Shown here in pieces: positions 47,792-54,305 of a stretch of DNA of 64,000 nucleotides. A program made the translations under genes and the position numbers. The stretch's first letter is position 1. Each line of letters starts with the position of its first letter. Under the pieces are notes generated by a model, which saw only the letters and a list, made by a program, of their open reading frames with translations, was not told the origin of the DNA and searched no databases. Source of the stretch: Thalassorhabdomicrobium marinisediminis (GTDB lineage: Bacteria; Pseudomonadota; Alphaproteobacteria; Rhodobacterales; Rhodobacteraceae); the NCBI RefSeq assembly GCF_003072065.1, contig NZ_QCYG01000001.1:186001-250000 (forward strand), given 5' to 3'.

Positions 47792-49747
47792 ATGACACTC
47801 ACACTCAACCGGCGCGGCTTTCTGGCCAGCACCGCAGGCTTCATCGCCCTGCATCCGTTTTCCGCCAACGCCGCTGCAAATCAGGCGCATTTGCGCATCA
47901 TGGAGACGACGGACCTGCACGTGCACGTCTTTCCCTACGACTATTACGCCGACAAGGAGAGCGACACTGTAGGTCTTGCCCGCACCGCAAGCCTGATCCA
48001 GCAGGTGCGCGACGAGGCGTCCAACTCGCTGCTGATCGACAACGGCGATTTCCTGCAGGGCAACCCGATGGGCGATTACATCGCCTATGAGCGGGGCATG
48101 GCCGAAGGCGACAAACACCCCGTCATTCAAGCGATGAACACGCTGGGCTTCGACGCCTCGACCCTAGGCAACCATGAGTTCAACTACGGCCTTGATTTCC
48201 TGATGAAGTCCGTGGCCGGGGCCGAGTTCCCCATCGTCACGGCCAACGTCGCGCTTGAAACAGGCAGCGATCCGACCAAGGACAAGACGCTGATCCAGCC
48301 CTTCGTGATCCTTGATCATACCGTGACGGACGGGGACGGAACCGAGCATCCGATCAAGGTGGGGCTCATCGGCTTTGTGCCGCCGCAGATCATGAACTGG
48401 GACCGCCGCCATCTCGAAGGCAATGTGCAGGCCCGCGACATCATCGAAACGGCGAAAGCCTATATTCCGCTGATGAAAGAGCAGGGGGCCGATATCATCG
48501 TGGCCCTGTCGCACTCGGGCATCGGTGAAGCGGACGCCCACGACGGGATGGAGAATGCTGCCGTGCCGCTGGCGGGGCTTGACGGGGTGGATGCGGTGCT
48601 CACGGGGCACAGCCATCTGGTGTTCCCGTCGCCGACCTATGCCGATTTCGCCGGCGCCGACGTGGATGCGGGCACCCTGATGGAGACGCCCGCCGTGATG
48701 GCCGGCTTCTGGGGCAGCCACATGGGTCTGATCGACCTGCTGCTGGAACGGGACGGCAACGCATGGCGCGTGATCTCGGCGGAAACCGAGGCGCGGCCGA
48801 TCTCCATGCGGGGCGAGGATCGCTCGATCACGCCGCTGGTCGAAAGCGATCCGGAGGTGCTGGCCTCGGTGCAGCAGGAACACGACGAGACACTAGCCTA
48901 TGTGCGCCGCGCCGTGGGCAAGACCGACGCGCCGCTGCACAGCTATTTCGCGCTGGTCGCCGATGATCCGTCGGTGCAGGTCGTCTCGAACGCGCAGCGG
49001 TGGTATATTGAACAGATGCTGCAAGGGACCGAGCATGAGGGTCTGCCGATCCTCTCCGCTGCCGCGCCGTTCAAGGCTGGTGGCCGTGGCGGGCCCGAGT
49101 ATTACACGGACGTGCCCGTGGGCGATGTGGCGATCAAGAACGTCTCGGACCTCTATCTTTATCCCAACACCGCCCGCGCGGTCCGGGTGACGGGGGCGCA
49201 GGTCAAGGACTGGCTGGAACGCTCGGCGGGGATGTTCAATCAGGTCGAGAAGGGCGCGCAGGATGCCGTCCTGCTCAACCCTGAATTCCCCAGCTACAAC
49301 TTCGATGTGATCGACGGGGTCGAATACCAGATCGACCTCTCGCAGCCGTCGAAATATGACCGCGAGGGGGAGGTGATCAACCCCGACGCCAACCGCATCG
49401 TCAACCTCACTTACGAGGGAGAACCCGTTGACATGGATGCGGAATTTATCATCGCGACCAACAACTACCGCGCCAGCGGTGGCGGAAATTTCCAGGGTGC
49501 CACGCCCGAGACCACGGTTTTTGAAGGGCCCGACACCAACCGCGACGTGATCGTGCGCTACATCGTCGAGAAGGGCACCATCAACCCCAAGGCCGACAAC
49601 AACTGGTCCTTCGCGCCGCTGGACGGCACGACGGTTCTGTTCGACACCGGCCCCGCGGCCTCGGCCTATCTCGATCAGGTGGACATGGACATCGAGGAAG
49701 CAGGCGACGGGCCGGACGGCTTCGCGCGGTTCCGCATCACGCTCTAG
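47792..49747 (+). CDS. cpdB: periplasmic 2',3'-cyclic-nucleotide 2'-phosphodiesterase/3'-nucleotidase
   Basis: 651 residues. N-terminal Tat-like signal (NRRGFLASTAGFIAL, cleavage near ANA). The calcineurin-like metallophosphatase domain shows METTDLHVH, DNGDFLQGNPMGDY, TLGNHEFNYG and TGHSHLVF; the 5'-nucleotidase C-terminal domain follows from about residue 360. CpdB salvages extracellular nucleotides by removing 2'-cyclic and 3'-phosphates. AGGGAG precedes the ATG. Confidence 0.93.
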   Translation: MTLTLNRRGFLASTAGFIALHPFSANAAANQAHLRIMETTDLHVHVFPYDYYADKESDTVGLARTASLIQQVRDEASNSLLIDNGDFLQGNPMGDYIAYERGMAEGDKHPVIQAMNTLGFDASTLGNHEFNYGLDFLMKSVAGAEFPIVTANVALETGSDPTKDKTLIQPFVILDHTVTDGDGTEHPIKVGLIGFVPPQIMNWDRRHLEGNVQARDIIETAKAYIPLMKEQGADIIVALSHSGIGEADAHDGMENAAVPLAGLDGVDAVLTGHSHLVFPSPTYADFAGADVDAGTLMETPAVMAGFWGSHMGLIDLLLERDGNAWRVISAETEARPISMRGEDRSITPLVESDPEVLASVQQEHDETLAYVRRAVGKTDAPLHSYFALVADDPSVQVVSNAQRWYIEQMLQGTEHEGLPILSAAAPFKAGGRGGPEYYTDVPVGDVAIKNVSDLYLYPNTARAVRVTGAQVKDWLERSAGMFNQVEKGAQDAVLLNPEFPSYNFDVIDGVEYQIDLSQPSKYDREGEVINPDANRIVNLTYEGEPVDMDAEFIIATNNYRASGGGNFQGATPETTVFEGPDTNRDVIVRYIVEKGTINPKADNNWSFAPLDGTTVLFDTGPAASAYLDQVDMDIEEAGDGPDGFARFRITL

Positions 49748-49951: not shown

Positions 49952-50338
49952 ATGACCGATCAGACCGACAAGAGCCTTTCGCGCCGCAAGGCCATCGCCC
50001 GCCTCGGCGGGGCCGCCCTTCTGGCCTATACCGTGCCCACGTTCGCCGCCCTCTCTGCGGCTGAAGCGGCCTCCTCTGCCAGCCCTGCCTCCGACCCCAG
50101 CCCCGCATCGGACCCGAGCCCCGCATCCACGCCCAGCCCCGCGTCCGACCCCAGCGCAGCCTCGACCCCGAGCGAGCCTTCGGCGGCCAGCGATCCGTCC
50201 ACGCCGTCGACTCCAAGCACGCCAAGCACCGCGAGCGGCCCCAGCGGCCCGCGCGTGATGACGCAGGACGAATGCGAATCCGCCGGTGGTTCGGTCGTCA
50301 CCCGCGCTGACGGCGTCCGTATTTGCGATTTGCCCTAG
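49952..50338 (+). CDS. Tat-exported Ser/Pro-repeat protein with a C-terminal two-cysteine module
   Basis: 128 residues. A twin-arginine leader (Arg11-Arg12 then KAIARLGG...AYTVPT, residues 9-40) precedes a low-complexity tract, about 41-100, built of SPASDPS/TPS-type units that is about 45% serine. The last 28 residues form a different module with Cys108 and Cys125 (TQDECESAGGSVVT...VRICDLP), probably a disulfide-closed loop. No known domain. An AAGGAG site precedes the ATG. It lies 124 bases before the kinase/PqqD gene and shares its leader with the protein at 51701. It could be a substrate of the kinase; this is inference. Confidence 0.82.
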   Translation: MTDQTDKSLSRRKAIARLGGAALLAYTVPTFAALSAAEAASSASPASDPSPASDPSPASTPSPASDPSAASTPSEPSAASDPSTPSTPSTPSTASGPSGPRVMTQDECESAGGSVVTRADGVRICDLP

Positions 50339-50375
50339 GGACACCCCCAACTCACGGAACTAGGGAAAACGAGGG

Positions 50376-50402
50376 CCGGGCGGTGCCACAGGTATCGCCC
50401 GG
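50376..50402 (+). terminator. GC-rich hairpin between the Ser/Pro-repeat gene and the kinase gene
   Basis: CCGGGCGGT (50376-50384) pairs with ATCGCCCGG (50394-50402) over nine bases including one G.T pair, with a nine-base loop. No T-run follows, so it looks more like an attenuator or mRNA-stabilising end than a full terminator. Confidence 0.45.
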
Positions 50403-50462
50403 TCAGCGGCCTTTGCAGTGGGCCGAAAGTTCACTATGCATCAGACGACGCAAGGTAGGGCT

Positions 50463-51704
50463 ATGGTGACCGAGACGACTTTCGTGCAATTCGACGGGCT
50501 GGATCATCCGGTGGCGCTGAACGGCGCATCGGACCTTCTGCCCTTGATCGCGGACATCGCGACGGCCTGTCCGCACCGGCACAGCCGCTCGGCCCGCGCC
50601 GCCCCGTTCGCCACGCTGGCCCCGGCCGAAGGCGGCGACTGGACGCTGACCCCGGCCGACGCCCCGGACGCGCCGCGCCGCTGGGATGGGGTCAATGCGG
50701 TGTGCGATCTGGTGGCCGAAATGGCGTGGGAACGCATCCGCTCGCACCCCGACATGCTGTGCCTGCACGCGGGCGGGGTGGCCTTTGGCGGGCGCCTGGT
50801 GGCCTTTCCCAACGGGCGGCGCGCGGGCAAAAGCACGCTGACCGCCGCGCTTGCGCATCTGGAGCATGAGGTCTTTACCGACGACGTGCTGCCCGTGCGC
50901 AAGGACATCGACAGCGGCACGTTCCACGGCATCGCCAATGGCGTCGCCCCACGGGTGCGTCTTCCGGTGCCCGACAGCTTCGACGCCGCGCTCTCGCAGT
51001 GGGTTGCGCAGGATTTCGGGCCGTCGAACCGGCAATACAAATATGTGACCACCGCGCCCATCGCGCGGGCGGGGGCCACCATGCCGCTGGGGGCGATCGT
51101 GCTGCTGGACCGGCAGGAGACGCCCTGCGCGCCGCGGCTTGATCCGGTGACCGAGGATGAAGCGCTCGCCACCCTGATCACCCAGAATTTCGCCCGTACC
51201 CTGCACGCCAGCATCATCCTGTCTTCGGCCGAGGTGTTGGCGCGGCACTTGCCAGTCTACCGCTTGACCTATGCTTGCGGTCAACAGGCGGCGGCATATT
51301 TGTCGGCGCATGAGGCCCTGCAGGACTTGCCCGTGGCGCGGCACGACGCAACCGCGCCCGAGGTCCGGCAGGCCCCGTTGGAAGAGCGGAACCGCCCCGC
51401 GCCCGCCTTCGATCCCGCCGCGTCCTATGTCCGCCGCGACGGCGTCACCGAAACCCGCGCCGGAGAGGCCTGGTTTCTGGCCGACAGCAGCGGGATCGCG
51501 ATCTATCACCTCAATGGCAGTTCGGCGGCGATCTGGCGGCTTCTGGCCGAGCCGATCACTTTGGCTGAGGTCTGCGAGGTGCTGTGCGCGGCCTATCCGC
51601 AGGTTGATCCGGCGGCGATCCGCACGGACAGCGAAGCGCTGCTGCAAAACCTCGCCGCTGCCCGCCTGATCGAGACCGTCCCCGCGCAGGAGCCTGTGGA
51701 ATGA
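50463..51704 (+). CDS. HPr-kinase-like protein fused to a C-terminal PqqD domain
   Basis: 413 residues. The kinase half (about 80-300) has the HprK-type order: LHAGGVAF (His102), a P-loop RRAGKST (Gly122-Lys123-Ser124) and the acidic VFTDDVLPV (Asp140-Asp141). The Gly expected to open the P-loop is replaced by Asn (N-GRRA-GKS). From about 322 to 405 a PqqD-like domain follows (YVRRDGVTETRAGEAWFL...IYHLNGSSAAIWRLL), the winged-helix type that recognises leader peptides in RiPP pathways. In the family, HprK-like enzymes phosphorylate Ser. The ATG at 50463 has AGGTAGGG upstream; 50436 (ATG) and 50418 (GTG) are alternatives. The stop overlaps the next gene (ATGA). Confidence 0.85.
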   Translation: MVTETTFVQFDGLDHPVALNGASDLLPLIADIATACPHRHSRSARAAPFATLAPAEGGDWTLTPADAPDAPRRWDGVNAVCDLVAEMAWERIRSHPDMLCLHAGGVAFGGRLVAFPNGRRAGKSTLTAALAHLEHEVFTDDVLPVRKDIDSGTFHGIANGVAPRVRLPVPDSFDAALSQWVAQDFGPSNRQYKYVTTAPIARAGATMPLGAIVLLDRQETPCAPRLDPVTEDEALATLITQNFARTLHASIILSSAEVLARHLPVYRLTYACGQQAAAYLSAHEALQDLPVARHDATAPEVRQAPLEERNRPAPAFDPAASYVRRDGVTETRAGEAWFLADSSGIAIYHLNGSSAAIWRLLAEPITLAEVCEVLCAAYPQVDPAAIRTDSEALLQNLAAARLIETVPAQEPVE

Positions 51705-52291
51705 GCGGTCGTAACCCCCTTACACGGCGCGCGGCACTGGCGCGGCTGGGGCTCGGACTGGCGGCGGCCTATGTCGCGCCGACCGTCACGGGGCTGAGCG
51801 TGGCCCATGCCTCGACCCCCTCGGACGCCTCGGCCGCAAGCCGCGCCTCGCCCGCGTCGAAGCCCAGCCCGGTCAGCCCGCCAAGTCCAGCAAGCCCGCC
51901 GACGGCGCCCACCGCGGCCAGCCGTCCGTCGCCCGTCAGCGGGCCCTCGCGCCCCGGGACGGGGTCGACACATTCGGCGCCTTCGGCCCCCTCAGCCGCA
52001 TCGGGCCCCAGCGGTCCGGGGAGCTGTTCTGGCGCGCGCCTGCCCGATGGCGGCCAGATGTCCCGGCGCGATTACGAACGCGCGCAACAGGCGATCCAGC
52101 GCGGGCAGGCGCGCCCCCTGCGCGAGGTGCTGACCCGTGTGCAAGCCAGCCATCCCGGTACGGTGATCCGCGTCGGCTTCTCAAGCGATGGCGGATCGTT
52201 CCGGGTGCTCACGGTCAACAACTCCGGCGCTGTGGTCTCCGTGCGGGTGGACGCGGCCTCGGGCCGGATCACCGGAGCGCAGGCCTGTTGA
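51701..52291 (+). CDS. Tat-exported Ser/Pro-repeat protein with C-terminal PepSY-like domain
   Basis: 196 residues. Twin-arginine leader (Arg9-Arg10, AALARLGLGL, AYVAPT) nearly superimposable on that of the protein at 49952, then a Ser/Pro/Ala tract (about 38-108, SPASKPSPVSPPSPAS-like) ending in SGPSGP as in the other protein. From about 119 a PepSY-type domain follows: RPLREVLTRVQASHPGTVIRVGF...FRVLTVNNSGAVVSVRVDAASGRI. Cys109 and Cys196 could pair. PepSY proteins often sit next to two-component genes and modulate proteases or sensors. ATG overlaps the kinase stop and its own stop overlaps the regulator ATG. Confidence 0.83.
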   Translation: MSGRNPLTRRAALARLGLGLAAAYVAPTVTGLSVAHASTPSDASAASRASPASKPSPVSPPSPASPPTAPTAASRPSPVSGPSRPGTGSTHSAPSAPSAASGPSGPGSCSGARLPDGGQMSRRDYERAQQAIQRGQARPLREVLTRVQASHPGTVIRVGFSSDGGSFRVLTVNNSGAVVSVRVDAASGRITGAQAC

Positions 52292-52956
52292 TGCGCATTT
52301 TGATTGTCGAAGACGAGCGCAAGATCGCCGAACTGGTGGCCGATGTGTTGACCGCCGAAGGCATGATCCCCGAGATCGCCTCGGACGGGGAGGAGGGCTG
52401 GTTTCTGGGCAGCACGGAAAGCTATGCCGCAGCTATTCTGGACATCGGCCTGCCCAAGCGCGACGGGCTGTCGGTGCTGCGCAACTGGCGCGAAGAAGGG
52501 CTGGACCTGCCAGTGATCCTGCTCACGGCGCGCGCCAACTGGAGCGAACGGGTCGAGGGGATCGACGCGGGCGCTGACGATTATCTGGGCAAGCCCTTCC
52601 AGATGGAAGAACTGATCGCCCGTCTGCGCGCCTTGTTGCGGCGCGCCAGCGGCCAGAAGACGACGACTTTCGAGGCCGGACCCCTGCGCATGGACCTGCG
52701 CCAGATGCGTGTCTCGGTCGATGGCAAGCCGCTGAAGGTCACGCCGCTGGAATACCGGCTGCTCAATTACCTGATGCACCAGCGCGGCAAGGTCGTCAGT
52801 CAGGAAGAGCTGATCGAGAATGTCTATTTTCGCGACCATGAGCCCGACAGCAACGCGGTCGAGGTCTTGATCGGGCGTCTGCGGCGCAAGATCGGCGGCG
52901 GCGTGATCGAGACGCGGCGGGGCTTCGGCTATCTGATTGCCGAGGACCTGTCGTGA
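52291..52956 (+). CDS. OmpR/PhoP-family response regulator
   Basis: 221 residues. Receiver domain with acidic pocket Glu7-Asp8-Glu9, phospho-acceptor Asp51 (AILDIGLPKRDGL) and conserved Lys in GKPF; winged-helix trans_reg_C domain from about 125 (VTPLEYRLLNYLMHQRGKVVSQEELIENVY...VEVLIGRLRRKIGG...RRGFGYLI). Typical of PhoP/QseB. It overlaps its neighbours on both sides by one and four bases, so it is translated with the PepSY protein and the sensor kinase. It is the probable reader of the direct repeat at 49843. Confidence 0.93.
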   Translation: MRILIVEDERKIAELVADVLTAEGMIPEIASDGEEGWFLGSTESYAAAILDIGLPKRDGLSVLRNWREEGLDLPVILLTARANWSERVEGIDAGADDYLGKPFQMEELIARLRALLRRASGQKTTTFEAGPLRMDLRQMRVSVDGKPLKVTPLEYRLLNYLMHQRGKVVSQEELIENVYFRDHEPDSNAVEVLIGRLRRKIGGGVIETRRGFGYLIAEDLS

Positions 52957-54305
52957 GGACCGCGCTGAACCTGCGGCTGTTTCTTGCGGCGGTGATCGCC
53001 ACAGCGGTGGCGCTGGTGGCGACGGCGGTGGTGCTGAACTTCCTGTTCCGGCTGTATTTCGAGGACCGCCTGCGCGACGAGCTTGAGACCTATCTCATCC
53101 AGCTCAGCGGCAATGTCGCCGTCACCGACAGCGGCGAGGTCGAGGTTGGCCCGCTCGCCGATCCGCGGTTCAACAATCCGTTGTCGGGCTATTACTGGCA
53201 GATCGAGGTCGCAGGTGCCGATCCGGTCCTCTCGCCGTCGTTCTGGGGCGCGCCCATGGCGTTGGAGCGGCCCGAGCAGCCCGGTGTGATCCGCGTTCAG
53301 GACATCAACATCGGCACCGAAGAGCCTCTTGCCGTAGCCCATTGGGTGATCCTTACTGGTCAGGACGCAGCACAGCGCAGCCTGCATCTGGCGGTGGCGC
53401 TGGACCGGACGGATCTCGACGTTTCGGTCGCAGGTTTCCGTTTGAACTCAACGCTTTGGCTGGCGGTTCTGGGGGCCTTCCTGCTGATCGCGAGCGCCGT
53501 GCAGATCCGGCTGGGCCTGCGCCCGCTTGAGAAGGTCCGCTCGGAGGTGAACCGCGTCAGCCGCTCGCCCGCGGGGCGTTTGTCCGACGACTATCCGACC
53601 GAGGTGCTGCCGCTGGTGGAAGAGGTCAACCAGTTGCTTGACACCAACGCCGCCACGCTTGAGCGGGTGCGGGCGGGGGCGGGCAATCTGGCCCACGGGC
53701 TCAAGACCCCGCTGACGATCCTGCACGGGGTAGAGCGCAAGCTGCGCAAGGCGGGGCAAGACCTTCTGGCCGACGAGTTGCAGACCGAGATCGCCAGCAT
53801 CGAACACATCGTCGAACGGGAATTGGCGCGGCACCGCGACAGCGGCCAGTCTCGACAGGTCTGCGAGGTTGCCCCGGTGGTGAGGCGGCTGAGTGACGCG
53901 CTGAGCCAGCAGCCCGGGTCCGAGCAGATCCGCTGGTCCGTCGAGGTGGACGAACGATTGCGCGCGCCGTTTGACGAATTCGATCTGACCGAACTGGTGG
54001 GCAACCTTCTGGACAATGCGATGAAATGGACCGACGGGCGGATCGTCGTGCGCGGCGCGCTGTCGGGCACCGTGGCCAGCCTGACGGTCTGCGATGACGG
54101 GCCGGGGTTGAGCGACGCGGGGCACGAGATCGTGCTGGGGCGTGGGCGCAAGGCCGATCCGGAACGCTCGGGCACCGGGCTGGGCCTGAGCATCGCCGAC
54201 GAGATGGCGCAGGCCCATGGTTGCGCGCTCACGCTGGATCGCAGCGACATGGGCGGGCTTTCGGTGATGCTGGCGTGGGAGCAGGCAGAGGCCGCCCCGC
54301 GCTGA
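52953..54305 (+). CDS. sensor histidine kinase, PhoQ/QseC-like
   Basis: 450 residues. TM1 (about 8-32), a periplasmic sensor domain of about 130 residues, TM2 (about 167-187), a HAMP-like linker, the H-box AGNLAHGLKTPLT with His248, and a HATPase_c domain with DNAMKW (N box), DDGPGLS (G1) and GTGLGLSI (G2). GTG start overlapping the regulator stop (GTGA). The envelope location of the sensor domain and of the upstream exported proteins suggests that they may be detected in the periplasm. Confidence 0.93.
   Translation: MRTALNLRLFLAAVIATAVALVATAVVLNFLFRLYFEDRLRDELETYLIQLSGNVAVTDSGEVEVGPLADPRFNNPLSGYYWQIEVAGADPVLSPSFWGAPMALERPEQPGVIRVQDINIGTEEPLAVAHWVILTGQDAAQRSLHLAVALDRTDLDVSVAGFRLNSTLWLAVLGAFLLIASAVQIRLGLRPLEKVRSEVNRVSRSPAGRLSDDYPTEVLPLVEEVNQLLDTNAATLERVRAGAGNLAHGLKTPLTILHGVERKLRKAGQDLLADELQTEIASIEHIVERELARHRDSGQSRQVCEVAPVVRRLSDALSQQPGSEQIRWSVEVDERLRAPFDEFDLTELVGNLLDNAMKWTDGRIVVRGALSGTVASLTVCDDGPGLSDAGHEIVLGRGRKADPERSGTGLGLSIADEMAQAHGCALTLDRSDMGGLSVMLAWEQAEAAPR

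Follow-up and report, generated by a model that had tools for sequence, protein, structure and literature searches.

In this study, five forward-strand genes that centre on an HprK-like kinase were analysed in a stretch of 64,000 nucleotides from Thalassorhabdomicrobium marinisediminis (contig NZ_QCYG01000001.1, positions 186,001 to 250,000), which is referred to below as the window. The first of them, gene A (49952..50338), encodes a protein of 128 amino acids that has a twin-arginine (RR) leader with the sequence YTVPTF and an AxA-type end, a body of Ser/Ala/Pro repeats with 23 Ser and 8 Thr in 88 residues and a short C-terminal tail with Cys; its leader scored 63.3 bits against the leader profile, and no Pfam match was found for the protein. 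Gene K (50463..51704) encodes the kinase, to which a C-terminal PqqD domain of the kind that serves as a recognition element (RRE) for ribosomally synthesised and post-translationally modified peptides (RiPPs) is fused; ATG 50463 is its likely start in an open reading frame (ORF) that opens at 50418. Gene B (51701..52291) encodes 196 amino acids with an RR leader containing YVAPTV, a Ser/Pro body and a PepSY-like C-terminal domain. It is followed by the genes for an OmpR/PmrA-like response regulator (52291..52956, in an ORF that opens at TTG 52288) and a PhoQ/QseC-like sensor histidine kinase (52953..54305). The overlap of the last four genes, which an initial annotation of this DNA had described, was borne out by the ORF coordinates (ATGA for K/B, TGATG for B/response regulator and GTGA for response regulator/histidine kinase). 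We consider it likely, with a probability of roughly 0.72, that K is a leader-guided kinase, which is recruited by a leader of the twin-arginine translocation (Tat) type that also acts as an RRE ligand and which phosphorylates Ser residues while the protein is still in the cytoplasm, ahead of Tat export.

The presence of an HprK-like kinase with a C-terminal PqqD domain was confirmed by the Pfam PqqD match (E 8.5e-13, over residues 359-418 as counted in the long ORF), the invariant HprK residues and the fold. The PqqD/RRE domain occupies 51423..51680, i.e., approximately residues 320-405 counted from 50466. An alignment of 21 fusions with 27-52% identity to K (A1), from which the locus L060 of genome G123 was left out because its kinase is broken by stops, revealed that H101 (codon at 50766..50768), the P-loop A120-G121-K122-S123 (50823..50834) and D139-D140 (50880..50885) are invariant in 21/21. 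The His, the P-loop and the Asp pair align with the HPr kinase 3TQF, the His at the start of the match, and we take it to be the HprK active-site His. The AlphaFold2 model of K reached a predicted local distance difference test (pLDDT) score of 93.4 and a predicted template modelling score (pTM) of 0.90. A Foldseek search of this model ranked chains of phosphoenolpyruvate carboxykinase (PEPCK) first and those of HprK next, two enzymes that belong to one fold group, and also returned the TbiB1-leader complexes 5v1v/5v1u (TMt 0.85/0.83; root-mean-square deviation 2.2 at 0.85). Because the catalytic residues are invariant and the predicted fold combines PEPCK/HprK with a TbiB1-like RRE, K is likely to be an active kinase with a leader-binding domain. 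The alignment used for folding, A6, leaves out L119, L121 and L123 on account of ambiguous letters, and a further alignment, A7, leaves out L119 and L123. The HPr-rel-A system (TIGR04352 kinase and TIGR04353 PqqD by their NCBIfam names) similarly pairs an HprK-related kinase with a PqqD-type chaperone, but the membership of K was rejected since its scores were far under the cut-offs: 32.5 bits (E 4.5e-8) against 200 for HprK_rel_A (TIGR04352), and 20.4 bits against 35 for the PqqD domain with TIGR04353.

The fused domain resembles RREs whose mode of binding is known. According to the available sections of a study on Linear Polyphosphorylated Peptides (LPP) by Popov et al. (PMC13381572), the discrete RREs of the lasso and LPP pathways bind leaders with [Y/W]xxPx[L/V/I/F/A], and a change in the Y or P weakens the binding; D70 of LppB holds the leader Tyr and its N33 fixes the Pro kink. 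When the profile of the 21 fusions was searched against the PDB, the top matches were RREs that had been co-crystallised with leaders, namely TbiB1 (5V1U, 1.2e-7), LppB (9X8Z, 3.3e-6), TfuB1 (6JX3, 2.6e-5) and PbaB1 (9X90, 1.4e-4), with the HPr kinase 3TQF (1.8e-4) and PqqD proper (5SXY, 0.015) lower down. D388 of K (codon 51627-51629), which aligns with LppB D70, is D in 20/21 fusions, while N350, which aligns with LppB N33, is N in 18 and D in 3 of the 21. Moreover, the equivalents of the LppB pocket residues L32, C39, I56, Y60, V67, M78 and L83 are mostly hydrophobic in the fusions. The YxxP inside the leaders, which was missing from the initial annotation, is the key element of the system.

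In an alignment of 28 leaders (consensus LSRRxALxRLGxxAxAAYxAPxxTxLSAAxASS), the only invariant positions were R11, R12, Y26, P29, A37 and A39, which by sequence are the RR of the Tat motif, the YxxP and the AxA of the cleavage site. With the RR motif, a hydrophobic stretch and an AxA site, the leaders have the sequence features of Tat substrates, and in those that were read, YxxP lies in the hydrophobic h-region of the Tat signal. The candidate RRE-binding motif is YTVPTF (YxxPxF; 50027..50044) in A, with the invariant Y26 and P29, and YVAPTV (YxxPxV; 51770..51787) in B, of which Y24 and P27 are invariant in 18 B proteins. Clustering at 97% reduced 77 kinase loci to 67 distinct ones, and YxxPx[LFMVI] was found in 94/94 leaders of these 67 loci, a count that is partly circular since the leaders from which the profile was built already had the Y and P. 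As controls, we used 35 Tat signals from the source genome and its relatives that scored above the TIGR01409 cut-off. In the 29 of these that could be placed (6/35 could not), [YW]xxP before the cleavage site was found in 0/29 as judged by eye, with YLIP after the site in two, and YxxP as a common trait of Tat signals was rejected.

The distribution of the two components was compared in 248 genomes of the same family. K as a query matched 32 of them; 22 have the kinase and PqqD, and the 10 weak matches were kinases without a fused PqqD or partial. An independent search with the leader profile found 23 genomes with at least 60 bits, the next best being at 30.7 bits, and these 23 were the 22 fusion genomes and G196. 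The leader was therefore present in 22/22 kinase-PqqD genomes compared to 1/226 of the others. The assembly of G196 is 64% complete and its contig ends approximately 280 bases past the leader gene, where a kinase would be cut off. Because separate searches for leader and kinase select the same genomes, their pairing is more than chance. In all of the 21 other family fusion loci (L041-L061), a same-strand RR...YxxP...AxA protein adjoins the kinase, whereas no leader-profile match was found in any of the 10 weak-match loci (L062-L071), and none of seven weaker leader-profile matches (L224-L230) has YxxP in its leader.

Similar observations were made in wider samples. A scan of named genomes, whose titles range from Rhodobacteraceae genera to Pseudomonadota and which favours close relatives and includes some genomes of the other samples, gave 57 loci, 56 with a leader match. 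The exception, L125, has almost no upstream sequence. Among the 67 distinct loci, the leader protein was present in 66, and the 67th, again L125, begins 21 bases before the kinase; kinase-PqqD fusions that consistently lack the repeat proteins, which the initial annotation had named as the finding that would speak against its proposal, were thus not observed in this set. Two loci outside the 77, L061 and L127 (below the BLAST limit; kinase cut by a contig end), both have leaders. Gene A was also considered as a spurious repeat ORF opposite a long antisense ORF (50026-50301), and this was rejected because an upstream leader protein occurs in 65/67 distinct loci; the two without it, L111 and L125, have just 510 and 21 upstream bases. 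At the order level, 24/244 genomes matched, and an adjacent leader was found in 17/17 near-full-length matches, which include the source genome and some genomes of earlier samples, and additionally in G415. Plasmid spread of close relatives was rejected, as the six plasmid-record matches all had less than 40% identity. In the class samples, both of which contain the source genome, the kinase profile matched 64/385 genomes, many with just PqqD or a weak kinase, and the leader profile 29/372. With the source genome excluded, 27/28 leader-positive genomes were also kinase-positive; the genes were adjacent in 16 of these 27, and in 11 they were separated by 25 to 119 kb or located on different contigs. 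Because 11 genomes carry leader and kinase apart, the pairing is beyond mere linkage. A kinase match above 100 bits was obtained in 32 other genomes of the class; 26 of these were leader-positive and two more, G813 and G805, have an adjacent leader. Examined locus by locus, 29 class loci had the leader within the 1.5-kb flanks in 18, and for the other 11 it was found elsewhere in 9 genomes. In many class genomes, the kinase and PqqD are two adjacent genes. In the phylum sample, 16/349 genomes matched, including three strong fusions from outside the class, each with an adjacent YVAPTL leader.

Several observations weigh against the pairing and docking of leader and kinase. The Fisher test of their co-occurrence in the family (p 1.4e-30) ignores relatedness. 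In G123, one of the 22 fusion genomes, the fusion is broken by stops and the leader is kept. At the order level, no leader was found in the flanks of six genomes whose matches were partial or interrupted. G548 has a leader without a kinase match in the class sample, and four genomes with kinase matches above 100 bits (G619, G739, G809 and G814) showed no leader, the kinase and leader class samples not being identical. The TIGR04352 scores of eight relatives were just 26.2-53.0 bits at the cut-off of 200, and the equivalents of the LppB pocket residues T30, V35, V63 and F74 vary and are unconserved in the fusions. In the motif itself, YxxP is replaced by FVIPTM (FxxP) in the leader of G415 and by YVAT in an additional leader protein of G206 (L311 6480-6929), which has a GGSSS repeat and lies distant from the kinase. 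The body of the G415 protein contains ten exact SNKSGK units, and its gene adjoins a separate kinase ORF and PqqD ORF (L309 6739-8415).

The initial annotation had described two flanking Tat-leader proteins with Ser/Pro repeats. The RR leaders and the Ser-rich bodies stand, but Pro is not needed, as relatives use Ala, Gly, Glu or Arg. In 66 of 67 A-type bodies, one with an X having been left out, the median Ser content was 29% with at least 9 Ser in each; the 66 include two extra leader proteins, one of which is an S8 peptidase with 6% Ser. Across the loci, the repeat units are as different as SPASxP, SAA, GGGAS, SGG, EPS, RPTRPS and SSV, with YSRPS in the other class. Because Ser is constant while the repeats and the content of Pro, Gly, Ala, Glu and Arg differ among the 66 bodies, the sequences fit Ser as the working residue in the A-type group. 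As a natural contrast, a Ser/Ala/Pro repeat protein whose signal lacks YxxP was found in one case (L068 8223-9593) beside an HprK-like kinase with no PqqD seen nearby; a small lipoprotein-like ORF lies between the two.

Chemistry like that of LPP peptides offers another explanation, in which K would phosphorylate one Ser near the mature N-terminus, once or several times, and the Ser repeats would be a spacer. There is a precedent in the HprK-like LppK, which places several phosphates on one core Ser, S3, as stated in the available sections of PMC13381572. Moreover, many distant leader peptides have one or two Ser/Thr, often with a PSPC/PTPC-like motif just past AxA. We consider this reading unlikely, since a spacer needs no Ser throughout, and yet Ser is constant, at no fewer than nine, in all of the 66 A-type bodies. 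The distant relatives also speak against many-site phosphorylation as a rule: in their leader peptides, Ser/Thr are often few and repeats absent. In each of the 35 bodies whose limits could be set, there is at least one Ser or Thr, and many have one or two; approximately a third have a single Ser or none, and that of L281 has no Ser and two Thr. Because many distant bodies carry few Ser/Thr, multi-site modification is not general across the distant relatives. Several loci between L258 and L284 encode short Tat/YxxP peptides with the PSPC- or PTPC-like motif just past the cleavage site, in genomes whose kinase and PqqD genes are split; these peptides are possibly single-site substrates.

For leader-guided phosphorylation by K, the following course can be proposed. 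The YxxPx[L/F/V/M/I] that A and B carry in the hydrophobic stretch of their Tat leaders would dock in the groove of the PqqD/RRE domain of K, and the disordered Ser-rich body that follows the docked leader would thereby come to lie at the HprK-like active site. K would then phosphorylate Ser, and possibly Thr, in the cytoplasm, probably at many sites, and the modified protein would be released, exported by Tat and cut at AxA to give a periplasmic or surface phosphoprotein. The initial annotation had already suggested a leader-guided system; that a leader guides the action of a PqqD-fused HprK-like kinase on such proteins has good comparative support from the genome-level co-occurrence, YxxP, the conserved pocket and catalytic residues and the high-confidence model, while RRE binding and Ser phosphorylation as such are inferred from the families and the conservation. 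Because the RRE motif overlaps the Tat h-region, RRE binding could also hold back export until modification is complete. The position of YxxP in the h-region would also suit a fusion that is mainly a Tat proofreading chaperone, holding the leader until some event, with a regulatory kinase activity rather than mass modification; for bufferins, it has been proposed that the partners in modification mask the signal peptide (available sections of PMC12452194). Such a role as the main one is clearly unlikely, considering that the catalytic residues are invariant in all of the aligned fusions and that A is of low complexity with nothing obvious to fold.

Phosphorylation of exported proteins by K may further be linked to signalling through gene B. 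The PepSY match of B by sequence was below the cut-off and only suggestive (Pfam E 0.026). The predicted fold of residues ~118-196 (52052..52288), modelled with a pLDDT of 88-95 in ten-residue blocks from 121 on, had the PepSY protein UipA (7ath, probability 1.00, E 0.063) as its top Foldseek match and also matched YpmB (2gu3, probability 0.97, E 0.19); by its modelled fold, the C-terminal domain of B is PepSY-like. B, the response regulator and the histidine kinase travel as a set in 27/67 loci, with the two regulatory genes following B in 27/27 and in 0/40 loci without B, although in two of these 40 (L079 and L128) the downstream sequence is too short for a decision. In 27/27, B has a YxxP leader. 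B would be a second substrate, and the histidine kinase encoded beside it probably receives a signal from its exported PepSY domain, in the way that the PepSY protein DbfQ acts on the neighbouring histidine kinase DbfS (available sections of PMC12714742); such signalling would couple export or modification to gene control. The control by the PepSY, regulator and kinase genes that the initial annotation envisaged is to be restricted: the set is present as described but is accessory to the A-K core, which is constant while its control differs. Since PepSY-two-component modules are common (PMC12714742, in the part available), the locus could in principle be an ordinary operon of this kind into which an unrelated kinase-PqqD gene was inserted by chance, but with the set lacking in 40 loci and the YxxP leader present in every B, this is extremely improbable.

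In a second arrangement, seen on Shinella and Paracoccus plasmids and in G135, the fusion is accompanied by a sigma factor, by an anti-sigma-like gene and by an S8 peptidase which itself bears the YxxP leader; in G026, this arrangement lies away from the kinase. S8 peptidases with a Tat/YxxP leader, a divergent sigma factor and an anti-sigma-like gene were observed beside the fusion at L313 4040-7053, L314 2949-5918 and L055 7020-10042 and away from it at L310 6154-7536. Other local variants include a transposase-like ORF (by eye) that disrupts the PepSY protein gene between the kinase and the response regulator (L045 10246-12070), a PepSY_TM protein by Pfam directly 3' of the kinase in a locus without the set (L046 9301-9885) and an unrelated-looking response regulator upstream in L058.

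By Pfam, nothing unusual was seen among the nine neighbours in the window (45.4 to 60.5 kb), which are MerR, DUF305, MauE/glutaredoxin, 5'-nucleotidase, AraC-type, Rieske oxygenase, urocanase, FGase and aromatic lyase. The 5'-nucleotidase/metallophosphoesterase upstream of A (47792-49747) has its own RR-type leader, without YxxP. These neighbours bear on the possibility that the Ser/Pro bodies are O-glycosylated and that the kinase targets something else, e.g., a sugar or the regulator. The Ser/Thr/Pro/Ala-rich bodies resemble mucin-type regions, and dTDP-rhamnose-type genes were seen by eye beside the kinase of L044, but Pfam found no glycosyltransferase among the nine (the neighbours of other loci were read in part) and the RRE fusion links the kinase to the leader, which makes this explanation very unlikely. 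Chain-length/O-antigen-like ORFs were likewise seen by eye near the kinase in L301; LPP clusters are also found in capsule loci.

Compared with known systems, the closest in its components is LPP of Bacillota (lpp cluster), which, according to the available sections of PMC13381572, has an HprK-like kinase, a PqqD-like RRE and the leader motif YxxPx[V/L/F], and in which a linear precursor, one of 1-3 per cluster with a constant leader and a variable C-terminus, is phosphorylated on Ser. In the family studied here, however, kinase and RRE are one protein, whereas the LPP RRE is discrete, and the Ser-repeat proteins of Pseudomonadota have a Tat signal as their leader, complete with RR and AxA. 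The LPP leader consensus YxxPxVLxHQxIxFETxxS was not matched by that of the 28 leaders, and Pfam found no SpI-like (archaeal-type) leader peptidase, MsbA-like exporter or nucleoside triphosphate (NTP) transferase as in LPP among the nine window neighbours. Phosphorylated lasso peptides of the paeninodin type share the HprK-like kinase and an RRE that binds [Y/W]xxP leaders (PMC13381572, same sections). A lasso cluster was rejected, as neither a macrolactam cyclase nor a B2-type peptidase was found among the nine neighbours by Pfam, and the precursors here have no lasso-type core. In the Bacillus spore coat, CotH multiply phosphorylates the Ser-rich repeats of CotB and CotG, and is likewise a dedicated kinase for Ser-rich repeats of surface proteins encoded beside it (available sections of PMC7821199). 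It is the nearest analogue for the outcome, but CotH is a eukaryotic-type kinase that acts at the spore surface. To our knowledge, CotH and its substrates have no RRE and no Tat leader. In bufferins and other signal-peptide RiPPs, the precursor that an enzyme modifies also begins with an export signal, which has been proposed to stay masked until the modification has taken place, but these systems differ in the Sec signal, the MNIO enzyme with its DUF2063 partner, the Cys chemistry and copper (PMC12452194, as far as available). In DbfQRS, a small exported PepSY protein is likewise encoded with a response regulator and a histidine kinase (PMC12714742, same part), while B also bears the Tat/YxxP leader and a Ser-rich body and is PepSY by fold only.

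In the open-licence PMC literature, the terms for HprK-like kinases and HPr-rel-A led to PMC13381572 only; nothing was found that joins twin-arginine, leader peptide and RiPP recognition element, nor, by title, relevant work on PqqD, Rhodobacteraceae, kinase, RiPP and Tat. The available portions of RRE-Finder (PMC7470986) and of a structure-based RRE survey (PMC12710340) contain no word beginning with "kinase". The initial annotation knew of no described system with this combination. This has to be qualified, since in LPP (PMC13381572, 2026, available sections) an HprK-like kinase works together with a discrete RRE, and YxxP is likewise the motif bound by it. RRE-guided HprK-like phosphorylation is known there for lasso and LPP peptides, LPP being restricted to Bacillota, and the system described here does not amount to a wholly new principle but is a variant of it, in which Ser-repeat proteins have a Tat leader and the kinase is fused to the RRE.

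A broader reading, which we hold tentatively and at slightly less than even odds, is that of a new RRE-guided class in Pseudomonadota, in which one N-terminal peptide would be both Tat signal and RRE ligand and a kinase-RRE fusion would hyperphosphorylate disordered Ser-repeat proteins and gate their Tat export. It would be a bacterial equivalent of caseins and similar secretory phosphoproteins, and its control, by a PepSY-two-component set or by sigma/anti-sigma factors and a protease with the same leader, would be exchangeable. Export gating, signalling and a surface or metal-binding role are speculation at present; a charged, cation-binding or adhesive envelope layer would be a reasonable guess. 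The YxxP code lies here inside the Tat signals of proteins with lengths of approximately 65-210 residues, which occur in Alphaproteobacteria and also in one or more other classes of the phylum. This would, if true, extend RiPP-type enzymology to secreted proteins, provide a test case for the order of modification and Tat export and offer a compact means to place phosphoserine on repeat proteins that follow a short tag. For kinases that are annotated merely as "PqqD family protein", it also suggests what the substrates may be.

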